Of a DNA stretch of 45,860 nucleotides, positions 816-7,470 are shown piece after piece. The stretch's first letter is position 1, and every line of letters begins with the position of its first letter. The notes below the pieces were generated by a model. That model did no database searches. It had not been told where the DNA came from and saw only the letters and a program-made list of their open reading frames with translations. The translations under genes were made by a program, and so were the position numbers. Source of the DNA: a virus; IMG/VR virus record IMGVR_UViG_3300017987_000145, positions 1 to 45,860 of that record; one strand, given 5' to 3'.

Positions 816-1240
816 ATTGCCATCACCTCGATCTTGAGTTCCACTCGAGGCTGTGTGCGATCGATGTCGAGTCGCGATCCGTCCCAGCTCCGGATCCACT
901 TGTCGTTGGTGATGATCTTCCGCTGCTCGAGGAAATCGGCCAGGCCCTGCTCGAAGCCGATCAGGTCGCCGCGATCGGCATCACGGTAGAAGATCGCCTC
1001 GCATTGGTACGGCTGATCGGGGAGGGCGCCTGGTTGAATCGACCTCAAATCACGATTGCCGTTGCTGGTCGTGACGGTGACCAGTGCCTTCTTCACCCAT
1101 TCGCGCCAGGCCTTCGATGGAAACACGCGGATTGCCCCTGATCGCATCTTGCAGACTGGGCAGACCTTTCCCGTGCGCACACCTTGGTTGCTGGTCTTCT
1201 TCGTGCGCGGCGGTCCCCAGATCACGAGACGGAGACGCAT
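812..1240 (-). CDS. rusA: RusA-family Holliday junction resolvase
   Basis: The 142-residue protein has the RusA layout. A GPPRTKKTS motif near the N-terminus corresponds to the family Gly-Pro-x-x-Lys signature. An acidic cluster (YRDADRGDLIGFEQGLADFLEQ) supplies the metal-binding aspartates, and ITNDKW is followed by a C-terminal beta strand. A CPVC pair near residue 28 is an extra that may bind metal. RusA enzymes cut four-way DNA junctions and in phages act on recombination or replication intermediates before packaging. The gene overlaps both neighbours. A GTG one codon upstream (1243) is an alternative start. Confidence 0.85.
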   Translation of the reverse strand: MRLRLVIWGPPRTKKTSNQGVRTGKVCPVCKMRSGAIRVFPSKAWREWVKKALVTVTTSNGNRDLRSIQPGALPDQPYQCEAIFYRDADRGDLIGFEQGLADFLEQRKIITNDKWIRSWDGSRLDIDRTQPRVELKIEVMAI

Positions 1241-1626
1241 CACCGATCTGCCTTCTCTATCTCGATCGCGGCAACTTCTGCCAGCAGGTAATCAATAACC
1301 TCGTTGGGGGTGTGTTCTCCCTCGTAGACATAACGAGCTCGTCGAATAGCCTCTTCCCATCTCTGTTTGAGCCGTGACATCGGGTGTTCAGGGCATACCT
1401 CAATGTGTTCTTTCAGCACGTCCGCCATCGTCGCCGGCACTTCGTCGTTCGGTCCGTATCGGTGGCCGCAGTAGACACAGTTGATGTACATACCGGATTG
1501 AAGGTCATGCACCCATTGCAGCAGTCGCTCGTTCTCACGCTCAAGTGTGCAGATGCGATCGGACATGCCCTGCACACCGGTTTTCGCTATTTCGACAAGT
1601 TTGTCGGTGACCTGCTCGGCGGTCAT
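1240..1626 (-). CDS. Small phage protein with a putative C2H2-like zinc site
   Basis: The 128-residue protein begins with a coiled-coil-like helix (DRICTLERENERLLQWVHDL). It then has CVYCGHRY, a spacer, and HIEVCPEHPM, a plausible Cys/His zinc site of a type common in small phage early proteins. The C-terminal third is helical and charged. The ATG at 1626 overlaps the DUF5131 stop; the longer frame to 1770 only reads DUF5131 codons in another frame. No function can be assigned. Its place between DUF5131 and rusA says only that it is an early gene. Confidence 0.65.
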   Translation of the reverse strand: MTAEQVTDKLVEIAKTGVQGMSDRICTLERENERLLQWVHDLQSGMYINCVYCGHRYGPNDEVPATMADVLKEHIEVCPEHPMSRLKQRWEEAIRRARYVYEGEHTPNEVIDYLLAEVAAIEIEKADR

Positions 1627-2975
1627 TGTGGTATCTCCTTGTACTTCCACAGATGGTCCGGGATGTCGCCTTGTCTGCCCGGGAAGCGGTGGGAGCCTTG
1701 CTTCACGAACACCGGCACTTCGGCTGCACGGCATTGATCCACGATGTCCTCGATCCATTCGACCTTGCACTCGCGTCGGTTTGGGCCGCTCTCAGCACCA
1801 ACGATCACGAGGTCAAGGCCACAAACTGACCCTTCTCGTTGCGTCCCACCCTCGCGCGCCGCCTTCGATCTGTGTAATCCGCCGTTGGTCCGCCCTGCAT
1901 CACTCGACGGTCGCCCCTCACGATCGCGGAAATCGTCTGTGGTGACGTCGCGTATTGCCTCGCGAGTTCCGGGAGTGTCACTTGTCCGGTCGCATACGTG
2001 AACCTGATGCTCACCACCTGGTCGTCCGTTAGAAACGCGGTTGGGTTGCTCTCTCCGTGTTCGTCTTTGAGCCCCGTCCGGTAGGCGTGTTTCACATTCT
2101 CCGACGGCGTTACTATCTCTAGGTTCGACGGATGGTTGTTGCTCTTCACCCCGTCGAGGTGGTTCACCACCATGCCGTCCGGTATCGGTCCGAAGAAGTG
2201 GTGGTAAACAAGACGGTGTGCAGACGCATTCACTCGTTGCCCGTTCTCCATCCTTCGAATCTGTAGGTACCCGCTTGGTGTTGGGTGTTCTGCTCGGCGA
2301 GGTTCGCACGCCACCAACCTCGATCCCCGGTTCCACCGATCGCCGCACCGAATCTTCATCCGCCAGATGCGGCCCGTTGGGTCTATTAGCAACTCGCCCG
2401 ACACCACACCTTTGTACACTTTGATTTCCGCCCTCATAGCCTGCTCCTAGATATGGTGACAGGTCCACCGGTCCAAGCGTCGGCTCGATCGAGACGAAGT
2501 GCAGCGCTGCCGGCTGTTCCAAAAGAGTGGGGATTCGCTTCTCGGCCTGCTCTTGATTCTCAGCAGTGACGCCGAGCCACACCCAGGGAAGAGGCCATCC
2601 CGTCAATGTCTCACGACATTGCGCTATCCGTTCAGGGCGCTTCGTGCAGATCAGGAACTTGAAACCGCAGCACGACTTCATTACGAGCCAGGCGCTCCGT
2701 CGCCAGATGTCGGCGTCTCGATGGAAGAAGTCCGATAGCTCGCAAACGAAGACGCGACCTGGTCTGTCGCGACCACCGATTTCGTACGGATCCCACTTGC
2801 GGGGCGCATAGAACGTCGCGTCGCTCGCCCGTATCAACTGGGAGAAGAATTCACGCCCACATCTCTTCGCCCAGGCGGCCGCGTAGCAGTTCTGGCACCC
2901 CTCTGAAACAGGCGTGCAGCCAATCCAGGGGGACCACGAGGCATCCACGTAGCCTATCTTCGATTCGCGACCCAT
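1623..2975 (-). CDS. DUF5131 (phage Gp37/Gp68-type) protein, interrupted by an in-frame insertion of about 205 codons
   Basis: Residues 1 to about 178 match the DUF5131 phage family, with WSPWIGCTPVSEGCQNCYA, CTKRPERIAQ, WLGVTAENQ and SIEPTLGPVDLSPYL. Residues about 386-450 match the end (GLDLVIVGAESGPNRR, DQCRAAEVPVFVKQ). Between them is a low-similarity, Arg/Ser/Pro-rich stretch that corresponds exactly to an HNH endonuclease gene read in another frame (1805-2437). Without the insert the protein would be about 245 residues, the usual family size. The Cys pattern (CTPVSEGCQNC) is a conserved metal or Fe-S type motif of the family, whose biochemical role is unknown. The interrupted protein may be non-functional, or the insert may be removed from the RNA. 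Confidence 0.85.
   Translation of the reverse strand: MGRESKIGYVDASWSPWIGCTPVSEGCQNCYAAAWAKRCGREFFSQLIRASDATFYAPRKWDPYEIGGRDRPGRVFVCELSDFFHRDADIWRRSAWLVMKSCCGFKFLICTKRPERIAQCRETLTGWPLPWVWLGVTAENQEQAEKRIPTLLEQPAALHFVSIEPTLGPVDLSPYLGAGYEGGNQSVQRCGVGRVANRPNGPHLADEDSVRRSVEPGIEVGGVRTSPSRTPNTKRVPTDSKDGERATSECVCTPSCLPPLLRTDTGRHGGEPPRRGEEQQPSVEPRDSNAVGECETRLPDGAQRRTRREQPNRVSNGRPGGEHQVHVCDRTSDTPGTREAIRDVTTDDFRDREGRPSSDAGRTNGGLHRSKAAREGGTQREGSVCGLDLVIVGAESGPNRRECKVEWIEDIVDQCRAAEVPVFVKQGSHRFPGRQGDIPDHLWKYKEIPQ
1805..2437 (-). CDS. HNH homing endonuclease nested out of frame inside the DUF5131 gene
   Basis: The 210-residue protein has an NUMOD-like N-terminal region (DPTGRIWRM, GYLQIRRM) and an HNH core (AHRLVYHHFFGPIPDGMVVNHLDG, NNHPSNLEIVT, NVKHAYRTG). 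A C-terminal HTH-like segment follows (TLPELARQYATSPQTISAIV). This is the standard layout of phage homing endonucleases, which cut intron- or insert-less alleles. An AGGAG Shine-Dalgarno lies 7 bases before its ATG, and its TGA falls within the DUF5131 codons for VIVG. The gene is therefore self-contained, and the inserted DNA is little more than this gene. Confidence 0.9.
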   Translation of the reverse strand: MRAEIKVYKGVVSGELLIDPTGRIWRMKIRCGDRWNRGSRLVACEPRRAEHPTPSGYLQIRRMENGQRVNASAHRLVYHHFFGPIPDGMVVNHLDGVKSNNHPSNLEIVTPSENVKHAYRTGLKDEHGESNPTAFLTDDQVVSIRFTYATGQVTLPELARQYATSPQTISAIVRGDRRVMQGGPTADYTDRRRRARVGRNEKGQFVALTS

Positions 2976-3239
2976 CTACATCTCCCGTAACTTTCTTGTC
3001 ATGTACGTGGATCCACCGAGCCCGCAGCCCGAGATGCACCCGGACAACCATCGGCCTGCGTATGTCTGGACCATGCCAGGATCTCGCCAGATCCCGGACC
3101 CGAAAGAGAACATCGAACGGTTCAACGATTACCTCGGAGCACTTGCGAGCCTGTCAACAAGCAGTACAAGCTCATCGTTCCTATATAGCTCGTCATCGGG
3201 GTCGTTTGGTGGTTTGACCTACCCAGGTTGACACCCATC
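2976..3239. other. Intergenic stretch without a convincing gene
   Basis: These 264 bases separate DUF5131 from the next early gene. This is one of the few gaps in an otherwise overlapping operon. A 76-codon plus-strand frame exists (3001-3231), but it lacks a ribosome site and ends in a Ser-rich low-complexity tail, so I do not call it. A GGGAG site for the DUF5131 start lies near its left end. A small regulatory RNA or an internal promoter is possible, but no specific motif is visible. Confidence 0.4.
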
Positions 3240-4120: not shown

Positions 4121-4407
4121 CACGATGCCTCCTCCCTGATCGCGCTCCGCTCGACGACCATCTCGAGGAGTTCCTCGGCCGTCGCCGGCGGTTCCATACC
4201 GAATGTGCCGCGAGCGAATGGAGCGAGCTGCTGGTACCAGATGCAGTCTCTGCGGTTCGTGTACTGGGTGCTCACGAAGAGGCGGTTGGTGCCTTGCTGC
4301 AGCCACGTGGGGCACATGTAGGTGAAACAGCAGAACGAAGGGCAGACGGGTTCCACCGGTTCGTCGATCATCTGATCGAGGCGTTTGAACCAGTCGGCTC
4401 TGTTCAT
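4120..4407 (-). CDS. Cys-rich small early protein, unknown
   Basis: The 95 residues include a compact group of cysteines (CPSFCCFTYMCP) followed by aromatic and Arg-rich sequence. This suggests a metal-binding or disulfide-free knuckle. The last third is helical and acidic (TAEELLEMVVERSAIREE). Both ends overlap neighbouring genes (ATGA with the initiator-like gene upstream, TGATG downstream), which supports a real translated gene. No family is recognised. Confidence 0.55.
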   Translation of the reverse strand: MNRADWFKRLDQMIDEPVEPVCPSFCCFTYMCPTWLQQGTNRLFVSTQYTNRRDCIWYQQLAPFARGTFGMEPPATAEELLEMVVERSAIREEAS

Positions 4408-5204
4408 CGATCCGCTCGCTTGGCGTTCCAGCGCCGCATGAGGTCAGTGTCCGACACGGAGCGGGTAGTTGCTGTTGTCCTAGTGTGCTTAGCACACTCT
4501 CCAACCTCACGCGGCTCCGTGCCCTTCATGGAGGTTGGAGAGTTGCTTACGCAACTAAGGGAGGTTGGAGCCCCCATCCCCCCTCCCACCTCACCTCCAC
4601 CCTCCCCTCCAACCTCATCCTTTATAGGGACCCCGACACCTGTCGGGGTCTGGGTCCGACACCTGTCGGGGTTTGGGTCCGACACCTGTCGGGGTTTGGT
4701 TTCCACAAGTGGTTGTGGATAAGTGGCTTCTGGAGGCGTTTCACCCCGACGACTGTCGGGGTCTGGGTCCGACACCTGTCGGGGGAAGAGCGTCGTTTGG
4801 GTCCGACACCTGTCGGGGTTAGACCCCGATGCTCGTCGGGGGAAACCCCGGTCATGGAGGTACTCGTCGAACTCGCGAATGATGTAGTTCACGTCCTCTT
4901 CGGCCGGCCGCTCGTTGGGTATAAACTGGATAGGAAGCACCGCGTACCAACTCTTGGATTTGGCCCCTGGCCGGGGTGCCGACTCATGCAGGCCTGCGTT
5001 GGCAAGCCTCTGGCGGTAGTCCTCAACGGTGCGGGGTTTCATGCCGAGGCGCTCGCCCATCTTGGCCGGCGCGAGCCAGGCGCCCTCCGGACCCAGGTCG
5101 AGAGCATAGTCCTCAAGCCACACGAGCTTCTCGCTAGGAGTGAGCACTCTCGATCCCTTTATCACCCGTTGCGCAGCGAAGCGCGGCTTGTCGGGACGCG
5201 GCAC
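4404..5204 (-). CDS. Winged-helix replication-initiator-like protein with origin repeats inside its gene
   Basis: Residues 1 to about 100 form a helix-turn-helix/winged-helix domain of the phage replication type (LTPSEKLVWLEDYALDLG, KMGERLGMKPRTVEDYRQRL, then a wing at KSWYAVLP). The rest is low-complexity and follows from DNA repeats: several copies of an Asn-Pro-Asp-Arg-Cys-Arg-Thr-Gln-Thr unit reflect the palindromes at 4631-4841, and a Gly-Gly-Glu tract reflects a polypyrimidine strand. Lambda O is a known case of an initiator whose gene carries its own origin. The GTG start shares a base with the upstream TAG. The initiator role is inferred from the fold plus the repeats; no helicase loader or helicase is recognisable nearby. 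Confidence 0.65.
   Translation of the reverse strand: MPRPDKPRFAAQRVIKGSRVLTPSEKLVWLEDYALDLGPEGAWLAPAKMGERLGMKPRTVEDYRQRLANAGLHESAPRPGAKSKSWYAVLPIQFIPNERPAEEDVNYIIREFDEYLHDRGFPRRASGSNPDRCRTQTTLFPRQVSDPDPDSRRGETPPEATYPQPLVETKPRQVSDPNPDRCRTQTPTGVGVPIKDEVGGEGGGEVGGGMGAPTSLSCVSNSPTSMKGTEPREVGECAKHTRTTATTRSVSDTDLMRRWNAKRADR
4482..4616. repeat. Inverted-repeat cluster beside the palindrome array (origin-like)
   Basis: The palindrome AGTGTGCT-T-AGCACACT occupies 4482-4498. CTCCAACCTC occurs at 4499-4508 and 4607-4616, and its reverse complement GAGGTTGGAG at 4531-4540 and 4561-4570. A second hairpin, AGTTGC-TTAC-GCAACT, is at 4541-4556. A pure polypyrimidine-rich tract follows (about 4571-4620). 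Together these could form large cruciforms or serve as protein sites at the edge of a replication origin. Confidence 0.7.
4631..4841. repeat. Seven 18-bp palindromic iterons, CCCCGACA-NN-TGTCGGGG type (putative phage origin)
   Basis: Palindrome centres lie at 4639.5, 4662.5, 4685.5, 4752.5, 4775.5, 4809.5 and 4832.5. Steps are 23, 23, 67, 23, 34 and 23 bp. Copies 1, 4 and 7 keep all four outer C/G pairs, while the others have shortened left arms. The 67-bp gap holds a perfect DnaA box. The array lies inside the 3' part of the initiator-like gene. It most likely binds that initiator as iterons. Binding of the ParB-family protein encoded about 1.1 kb away, parS-fashion, is the main alternative. 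Confidence 0.8.
4714..4722 (-). promoter_or_regulatory. Perfect-consensus DnaA box
   Basis: The minus strand reads TTATCCACA, the exact bacterial DnaA-box consensus. It is placed in the only wide gap of the palindrome array (between copies 3 and 4). A chance nonamer is possible in 46 kb, but its placement within an iteron-like array argues for an origin that uses host DnaA. Confidence 0.65.
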
Positions 5205-5953
5205 TAAGTGAGGACCTCAACGAGCACTCCTCTCTCAAGATCGGTCCGGCGGCCGCGGCCGGCGTGATACCGATCGAGCTGCTCACGGGCGAGCTCTCGG
5301 GCGGCCGCCTTACAGGGTTCGCATTTTCGAGCTTTGCCGGAGAGCACGGTGACTCCGCACGTCGGGCAAAGTCTGGGCTCTTGTTGGCCGTGATACCGAT
5401 CGAGCTCTCGAGCTGCTCGCTCCTTTCGCCGGTGCCGGCGGTACCGTTCGTGATACTTCGCACGTTTCGGCGATTGCCGGAGAGCCTCTCGGCGCTTCTG
5501 TTGAGCAACCTTATCCGGGTTGGCGGCCCGCCAGAGGCGTTTGTATTCGTTCCGCCTCTCGCGAATATCGGGATTGTTGTTGTAATACTTACGAGACCGA
5601 GCGCGCCGCTCTTCCCGGTGTCGATTCTCGGACGCCCGGATCGATCTTCTCGAGGCCTTCTTCTTGTGCTCGGCACAACGGCGCGCGTAGCCGACCTTCC
5701 CGTCGACGGGTCGAGCACAGTCGGCACAGATCCCGCGGCGCATCCGCTCACATGCCGGACAAACAACACGCACGCCGCCGTTACCGTCGGTGACGTGCTC
5801 GAGCTTCGCACCACATATGCCGAACCGGCCGAACTTCCGCGGGCAATAGACCTCGCCGCTGCGCCGCTTCTCCATTTCCCGATCGCGTTTCCGCCGAGCG
5901 TATTCTCTGGCGTACTTTCGCCGGCGGGCCCGCGTCTCCGAAGGTGCGGTCAT
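5204..5953 (-). CDS. Basic multi-zinc-knuckle protein, probably nucleic-acid binding
   Basis: The 249 residues are about one third Arg/Lys. There are several Cys pairs: CPRKFGRFGICG, CPAC then CADC, and CPTC then CEPC near the C-terminus. The middle has repeated Arg/Tyr-rich helices with NPD spacers (YYNNNPDIRERRNEYKRLW, RAANPDKVAQQKRRE). These resemble the non-catalytic front part of some phage HNH proteins. No HNH catalytic core is present. DNA or RNA binding is inferred. The gene overlaps ParB upstream by ATGA and runs into the initiator-like gene downstream. Confidence 0.65.
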   Translation of the reverse strand: MTAPSETRARRRKYAREYARRKRDREMEKRRSGEVYCPRKFGRFGICGAKLEHVTDGNGGVRVVCPACERMRRGICADCARPVDGKVGYARRCAEHKKKASRRSIRASENRHREERRARSRKYYNNNPDIRERRNEYKRLWRAANPDKVAQQKRREALRQSPKRAKYHERYRRHRRKERAARELDRYHGQQEPRLCPTCGVTVLSGKARKCEPCKAAARELAREQLDRYHAGRGRRTDLERGVLVEVLT

Positions 5954-7470
5954 GCTTCAGCCTTCGCTGTCTTCTTCGACTTTGGACTCTTGGCCTTCTT
6001 CTTCTCGGAGGGCTCAGCGCGTTTCTTCTTTCGCTGCTCAGCCTTCAGTCGCTTCTTCGCCTCGCGTTCGATCTCCTTGTCGAGATCCGCGGTGTCGCGT
6101 GCAAACCAGATCAGGAAGGCAAGCGCGTGCTTGGCCGCGAGACCGTCTTCGGGCCCGGAAATGTCCCAATCGTTGGTGACCTCTCCCCACTTGCCAGGCA
6201 TCAGTGGAAAAACAGCGTTCCAGTAACGCTCGCGGAAAGAGCTCCACAGTCTCTGTCGGCCATTTCCCCCGGGCCAATCGGTGTAGGGTTCAAAGTTCAA
6301 AGCGAGGAACAATGCCACGTCATCAGGGAGGAACTGGACCTCCGGCTTTATCACTGCGATTTGGTCGGCGAACTCCTGAGCGCGCTCGGTAATGACTTCG
6401 TTCTCGAGCTCGCACTGACGTTCGATGGTTCCCATATCGGCGGTATTCGCCGGCGTTTGCGTGGACGCGTTTCGCTTCGTGACGGTGACATGGATGACCT
6501 TCCCGCGATCCGGACCCGTCACAACGATCGCAGGCTGTGCGCCTTTGTCGCTCTTTTTGGCCGGCCGCCAATCCCACCGCGCCACAACGTCCTTCCCCTT
6601 CTTCCCATAGTCGCCGGCGACCTTGACCAGGTCGACGCCCTTCTTCTTGTGAGCCTCGATCTTCTGCGTGATGTGAGCCTGGACCTTCTTGTTGAAGCAG
6701 GACCGATCGGTGCAGACGTCACGCTTCTTCAGTTCCGGGAAAAGGTCCGGAGTAAACCCGGAGCGCTTTGGACAGCTGGAGCACGAGCCGGCCTTCGCGA
6801 CGAGCTTTTCACACTTGGTGTTAAAGGGTGCTTTCTTCAGCTCGAGGTGGATCTCGTCTTCGATCCACGAGGCGAGCTCCGTCGTGGTCATGTCACCGCG
6901 CCAGGCGTTTGCCATCCGCTTGAGTGCAGCCAGCTGATCCTTCGGCTGGAGACGCGCGATCAGGATGGCATGCCCCGCGGTGAGTTCATCCTCTTCGAAT
7001 CGCTTCCTCGCGTCAGGAATGAGATCGGCAAGCTTCAACCTCTGATACACGTAGCTCTTCGACTTCCCAACCTTGGCGGCGATCGCCTCGACGTCGTAGT
7101 TCTCGCCGTTGTCGAGGAGGAACCGGAAGTGCTCTGCTTCCTCGAGGGGGTGTACATCTTCCCGCTGAGAGTTCTCGATCGCGAGGAGCTCGACTACCTC
7201 TACGTCGGTCAGAGATCGGATTGTGGCCGGGATGTGTGTCTCGCCTGCGAGCTTCGAAGCGCGCCAGCGCCGTTCGCCGGCGACGATCTCATACTCCTGA
7301 AGATTCTCGCCCGACGGACGAACAACAATCGCCTGCAGCACACCCACCTTCTCGATCGACGCCTTGAGCTCCTCGAGCTTCTTCTTGTCGAACTTCTTCC
7401 GGTTCCAGGGATTGGGATGTAGCTCGTCGACGGCGATCGCGGCCTGATTGGGAACCGTGGCAGCTGTCAC
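5950..7470 (-). CDS. parB: ParB/RepB/Spo0J-family protein with an added Cys cluster and Lys-rich tail
   Basis: The N-terminus (about 10-115) is a ParB-N CTPase-type domain with HPNPWNRKKF, GERRWR (65-70) and ENSQRED (99-105). It is followed by the HTH region (AIAAKVGKSKSYVYQRLKLADLIPDARKRF, LTAGHAILIARL). Residues about 220-265 contain a Cys cluster (CEKLVAK, CSSCPKRSG, CTDRSCFNKK), and the last 50 residues are Lys/Ala-rich. At 506 residues it is much longer than a standard ParB. No ParA gene is visible. Possible roles are centromere-like DNA binding, replication control or regulation; the palindrome array is a candidate target. The start is GTG, overlapping the upstream gene. Confidence 0.85.
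   Translation of the reverse strand: MTAATVPNQAAIAVDELHPNPWNRKKFDKKKLEELKASIEKVGVLQAIVVRPSGENLQEYEIVAGERRWRASKLAGETHIPATIRSLTDVEVVELLAIENSQREDVHPLEEAEHFRFLLDNGENYDVEAIAAKVGKSKSYVYQRLKLADLIPDARKRFEEDELTAGHAILIARLQPKDQLAALKRMANAWRGDMTTTELASWIEDEIHLELKKAPFNTKCEKLVAKAGSCSSCPKRSGFTPDLFPELKKRDVCTDRSCFNKKVQAHITQKIEAHKKKGVDLVKVAGDYGKKGKDVVARWDWRPAKKSDKGAQPAIVVTGPDRGKVIHVTVTKRNASTQTPANTADMGTIERQCELENEVITERAQEFADQIAVIKPEVQFLPDDVALFLALNFEPYTDWPGGNGRQRLWSSFRERYWNAVFPLMPGKWGEVTNDWDISGPEDGLAAKHALAFLIWFARDTADLDKEIEREAKKRLKAEQRKKKRAEPSEKKKAKSPKSKKTAKAEA

Follow-up and report, generated by a model that had tools for sequence, protein, structure and literature searches.

A complete HNH endonuclease gene is nested out of frame within a DUF5131 gene whose own reading frame stays open across the entire insert. 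The window (i.e., the whole stretch of DNA that was analysed) is a virus record of 45,860 bases that encodes a lambda-type terminase and a portal. The nested arrangement, with the HNH gene at 1805-2437, had been put forward in the original prediction and is confirmed here, with open reading frames, Pfam matches and the codon signature all in agreement. The best explanation, which we favor with moderate confidence, is that a ShiLan-type homing element has inserted here, with an enlarged but whole host protein as the most likely state. The features of the locus are as follows:

1623-2975, minus strand: composite host ORF of 450 aa, consisting of a DUF5131 N part, a nonsense stretch of ~205 aa and a C part (ORF without internal stop; Pfam)
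2448-2975, minus strand: residues 1-176, forming the DUF5131 N part and carrying the C20/C27/C30 cluster of conserved Cys residues (Pfam, alignment of relatives, mostly pLDDT >90)
2444-2448, minus strand: AGGAG, the Shine-Dalgarno of the HNH gene, whose ATG follows after 6 nt (sequence inspection)
1805-2437, minus strand: HNH endonuclease gene, 210 aa, ATG start and TGA stop, +1 relative to the DUF5131 frame (ORF, Pfam, fold)
within 1805-2437, minus strand: HNH_3 domain (residues 73-115) and helix-turn-helix region (residues 138-173) of the HNH protein (profile, model)
1809-2447, minus strand: inserted DNA at its largest possible extent (comparison with relatives)
1805-1808, minus strand: GTGA, in which a host-frame GTG (V390, a possible restart for the C part) overlaps the HNH stop TGA (sequence)
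1623-1808, minus strand: DUF5131 C part, residues 390-450, with the motif VIVGAESGP...W...DQC...VPVFVKQ (tblastn and alignment to relatives)
1240-1626, minus strand: next operon gene, whose ATG overlaps the DUF5131 stop (ATGA) and whose Shine-Dalgarno AAGGAG lies inside the last DUF5131 codons (sequence)

The nested endonuclease gene and its operon

The DUF5131 profile (PF07505) matches two stretches of the composite protein (Pfam, overall E 1.2e-54), and the C part was assigned by tblastn to relatives. Both codon-position GC and a codon-usage score indicate that the native coding frame is the HNH frame within the insert and the host frame in the two flanks. The HNH gene had also been credited with a Shine-Dalgarno and a stop of its own; the former is present (AGGAG, 2448-2444), and the latter is present as a TGA, but one lying within the host codons GTG ATC (V390-I391).

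The 210-aa HNH protein contains an HNH_3 domain (PF13392; E 9.1e-17, 60.9 bits versus a Pfam cut-off of 24.8) and keeps all six residues that are invariant among 37 phage HNH relatives (H74, N92, H93, N105, E107, and N114). It resembles I-HmuI both in sequence (phmmer, 4e-7) and in its structure model (Foldseek, 3.6e-6), which places a helix-turn-helix region behind the HNH core. The endonuclease looks intact by these measures, and profile, invariant residues and fold together point to an I-HmuI-like (HNH_3) homing endonuclease for which cleavage activity would be expected.

The genes that follow DUF5131, which start at 1626, 1243, 815, and 459, are joined by overlaps of the form ATGA or GTGA. 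Because the operon genes overlap so tightly, a host-frame stop without a restart would uncouple the genes downstream; judging from the arrangement, such uncoupling would be avoided both by the open host frame and by the GTGA in which the HNH gene ends. In a separate part of the window, the palindrome-like motif (C/T)CCGACacCTGTCGGGG occurs six times at 4631-4818, with one copy matching on both strands, against a chance expectation of 0.03. This array falls within an ORF at 4404-5204 (minus strand), near a ParB-like gene at 5950-7470 (minus strand), and could represent putative binding sites for a replication or partition protein.

The insertion site and the host protein

All of the ~190 DUF5131 relatives retrieved from viral contigs and species genomes are uninterrupted at the insert site; this set contains a few near-duplicates, as well as two members that are truncated or frame-broken for other reasons. 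Amongst 59 aligned relatives, the N and C parts are separated by a loop of 6-65 aa (median 19), compared with 215 aa here, and this is the most length-variable loop of the family. The original prediction that the insertion falls exactly between two conserved segments stands as far as the separation of the N and C parts is concerned, and is refined in that the site is a variable loop adjoining a conserved motif rather than a position inside it. Comparison with uninterrupted DUF5131 genes, which had been suggested as a way to map the precise boundaries, confirmed the insertion but could only bracket its borders (left between 2447 and 2438, right between ~1830 and 1809), since the closest relatives are only ~40-50% identical and the loop itself is variable. 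No convincing target-site duplication or flanking repeats were found around the insert. Immediately at the right-hand junction, Trp 389 (W in 59 of 59 aligned relatives, a conservation that is somewhat overstated because this Trp was part of the search pattern for many of them) is replaced by Leu, a change that may mark the junction.

A second carrier of the composite was found neither in viral contigs, GTDB genomes and phages nor in plasmids, the last of which were searched with the HNH protein only. With a single carrier and no close relative, the pattern of presence and absence supports insertion but not spread, and because no second carrier was found, homing is proposed by analogy only. 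Free-standing HNH-like genes were observed within a few kb of uninterrupted DUF5131 genes at two other loci (L006, 908-1210 and 7085-7219; L145, 1271-1474 and 2198-2422).

The literature search returned no paper mentioning DUF5131, whose function appears undescribed there, and a sequence search returned no solved structure. In an AlphaFold model built with the 59 relatives, the N and C parts are mostly predicted at pLDDT >90. The insert is predicted at pLDDT ~40, with residues 180-380 devoid of secondary structure and modelled as a disordered loop, an outcome that AlphaFold gives almost by default for an insert absent from the alignment. Taken together, the two DUF5131 parts match radical-SAM barrels, most closely that of spore photoproduct lyase (207 residues in the range 1-426, Z 13.4), with further matches to viperin-like proteins, RlmN, and others at Z 10-11.6. 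A radical-SAM fold agrees with the conserved cysteines C20, C27, and C30, and the modelled structure makes DUF5131 a probable radical-SAM enzyme. R, G, E, P, S, and T abound in the host-frame stretch of the insert, which on a disorder scale exceeds 98% of comparable alternative frames from GC-matched genes. A tolerated loop is plausible because both parts fold confidently and the insert stretch is disorder-prone; of the three explanations offered originally (a spliced intron, a tolerated interruption, or a recent insertion), the tolerated interruption is the best supported, owing to the AlphaFold model and the radical-SAM barrel match. Recency keeps some probability, as neither a second copy nor a close uninterrupted relative was found.

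The host sequence itself provides signs of both retention and loss. The Cys cluster is complete and 40 of 47 conserved columns are unchanged; of the 59 relatives, only 4 have lost as many as the seven columns that differ here, or more. Judging by these differences and the lost Trp 389, the enlarged DUF5131 protein may be impaired.

The open host frame

Across the insert, the host frame contains 0 stops and the third frame contains 17. When the HNH gene was shuffled synonymously, 4.5 host-frame stops arose on average and the probability of none was 0.0044, while real phage genes show ~0.82 of the shuffled expectation. Counted empirically, 205-codon stretches in which the equivalent frame is wholly open make up 2 of 196 among the genes of this window and 22 of 929 among GC-matched phage genes. 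An open frame would thus arise by chance in ~1-2.5% of cases, or in ~0.3-0.8% after multiplication by 1/3 for the kept phase, figures that are uncorrected for the fact that this case was picked for the present look. These results are suggestive of selection on the host frame, although its openness is also within reach of luck. None of 80 other phage HNH loci surveyed has an alternative same-strand frame that is open throughout, and as nearly all of them are AT-rich they provide a weak control. One phage locus (L277) carries a 174-aa HNH gene at 1517-2066 with 47% GC and a single stop in the +2 frame; at its end this gene runs into the beginning of a large ParB/methylase-like ORF, possibly as another overlapping insertion.

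The chance estimates bear on the possibility that the insertion is recent or neutral, with DUF5131 inactivated or dispensable and its frame open by luck. Such a history is compatible with the empirical occurrence of equally open frames, and the replaced junction Trp, the 7 of 47 conserved residues that differ, and the failure to find a second carrier would fit it as well. However, neither half of DUF5131 has gained a stop or a frameshift, codon use is coding-like in both halves, and the Cys cluster persists along with the 40 conserved columns, and we regard a recent or neutral insertion with a luckily open frame as unlikely. Tentatively, and with clearly less confidence than the homing insertion itself, out-of-frame homing genes might form a 'frame-neutral' class, in which host-frame stops would be removed by selection, the host enzyme would remain whole while carrying a disordered loop of 200 residues, and the GTGA end would keep the operon translated; the present copy, with its own Shine-Dalgarno, would then be dual-coded, with both frames used.

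The proposal that the insert is an intron spliced from the message was not supported. No Rfam family reaches its gathering score anywhere in the window, and over 1600-3000 no intron match appears even at E<=10. The HNH ORF spans nearly all of the insert and leaves no room for an intron outside it, and RNA folding of the insert region equals that of shuffled sequences (z 0.02). A group I/II intron was rejected on these three grounds. HNH proteins of the I-HmuI family are commonly intron-encoded, yet given the same results we consider it highly improbable that the HNH ORF resides in such an intron, or in some unrecognised self-splicing RNA, that leaves the mRNA by splicing. A hairpin sequestering the ribosome-binding site, as in mobE, was also sought, with no unusual folding detected (z 0.41). 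Alternatively, the host-frame product of the insert could excise itself as an abnormal intein, which would suit an insert that is stop-free and in host phase; but a Pfam scan of the composite host-frame product finds DUF5131 only and no intein splicing domain, the insert is predicted to be disordered, and the host frame is not the native frame within it. An intein accordingly deserves almost no credence.

Related elements and a proposed mechanism

Out-of-frame HNH genes in mycobacteriophage DNA methylases were described in 2025 by Arsenault, Gosselin, and Gogarten as the 'ShiLan domain' (PMC11855218). The ShiLan methylase frame is free of stops, has no intron or intein, and has an insert predicted as a loop (PMC11855218); a second out-of-frame HNH case is Pacc40 gp60 (PMC11855218; PMC9957025). 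The ShiLan, Mantra, and Starcevich sequences were fetched, and the open methylase frame was reproduced, including in the 84%-identical Mantra copy. Between the ShiLan and Mantra elements, 0 host-frame stops were observed versus 1.03 expected (P 0.30), so that persistence of the open frame is not significant. In Mycobacterium phage Starcevich (L291, 2501-3085), codon 12 of the ShiLan-type HNH frame is a TGA, whereas the methylase frame is open; the endonuclease there may be broken or may start later.

The element described here is a clear further example of this recently described type, the kind itself being already known. In both, a phage host gene harbours an HNH gene read in a different frame, the host frame is stop-free, no intron or intein signal is present, and the insert is predicted to loop out from the host fold. 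Their sizes are also similar (195-aa HNH and 202-aa insert in ShiLan; 210-aa HNH and ~205-aa insert here). New here are the host gene (DUF5131, with a radical-SAM fold, versus a methylase), the HNH type (an HNH_3 core with a helix-turn-helix versus flanking zinc fingers), the frame (+1 versus the third frame), the gene's own AGGAG ribosome-binding site (none was found for ShiLan), and an HNH stop that, unlike that of ShiLan, is supplied by host codons overlapping a GTG (GTGA). Similarity to the ShiLan HNH protein is limited to the surroundings of the HNH motif (36% over 50 aa), and no DNA-level match to the element was found among phages. I-HmuI (PDB 1u3e) shares the HNH fold and sequence with the present protein but is group I intron-encoded, whereas no intron is detectable here.

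Other homing endonuclease genes interrupt their hosts in a different manner. In mobE within Aeh1 nrdA and mobA within T4 gene 60, HNH homing endonuclease genes lie inside the host coding sequence without an intron (PMC2988022), and the host becomes two coding regions, whereas the host frame here runs through without a stop. In Campsomeris mtDNA, cox2 contains an insert with a probable nuclease gene and an in-frame ORF bridging both halves, and protein analysis identified two separate polypeptides (PMC5374615). That insert differs in being 3 kb long with antiparallel ORFs and in having its two proteins established by experiment; the bridging in-frame ORF is common to both cases, and Campsomeris warns that such an ORF can still yield two pieces. 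These precedents for split genes, as well as the HNH TGA/host GTG overlap, which is of the same kind as the overlaps joining the other operon genes, lend some weight to a gene in pieces, in which the C part would be made separately through termination and reinitiation at the GTGA, the pieces would assemble, and the open host frame would be incidental. However, nothing stops ribosomes that start at the DUF5131 ATG, so that a full-length product should also arise; the separate C piece would be only 61 aa; and no good Shine-Dalgarno lies at the right distance from the GTG. A gene in pieces is thus a rather improbable outcome, slightly more so than a recent or neutral insertion; split expression and an impaired host nevertheless form the chief competitors of the preferred reading.

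In the preferred reading, a homing insertion with a whole host protein, an I-HmuI-like HNH gene would have entered the variable DUF5131 loop out of frame, without an intron or intein, and the net length of the insert would have kept the host phase and left no host-frame stop. Ribosomes that initiate on the DUF5131 ATG would cross the insert to produce a 450-aa protein with ~205 disordered residues looped out of the barrel, while others would start at the HNH Shine-Dalgarno, produce the endonuclease, and terminate at the TGA overlapping the host-frame GTG. Through this GTG overlap, translation could also proceed to the C part and to the closely overlapping genes downstream. DUF5131 alleles that lack the insert, carried by co-infecting phages, would then be cut by the endonuclease and acquire the element during repair. 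We infer the translation of both frames, the activities of the endonuclease and of the enlarged DUF5131 protein, and homing itself from the arrangement and its parallels.

The obvious AGGAG ribosome-binding site removes, for this element, the translation puzzle raised for the ShiLan case. Since gene callers report either the 450-aa ORF or the HNH gene, such elements are easily missed. The question of selection for an open host frame in these elements becomes directly testable. Out-of-frame HNH insertions extend beyond the methylases of mycobacteriophages, the same arrangement having been reached with a different host gene, HNH type, and frame.
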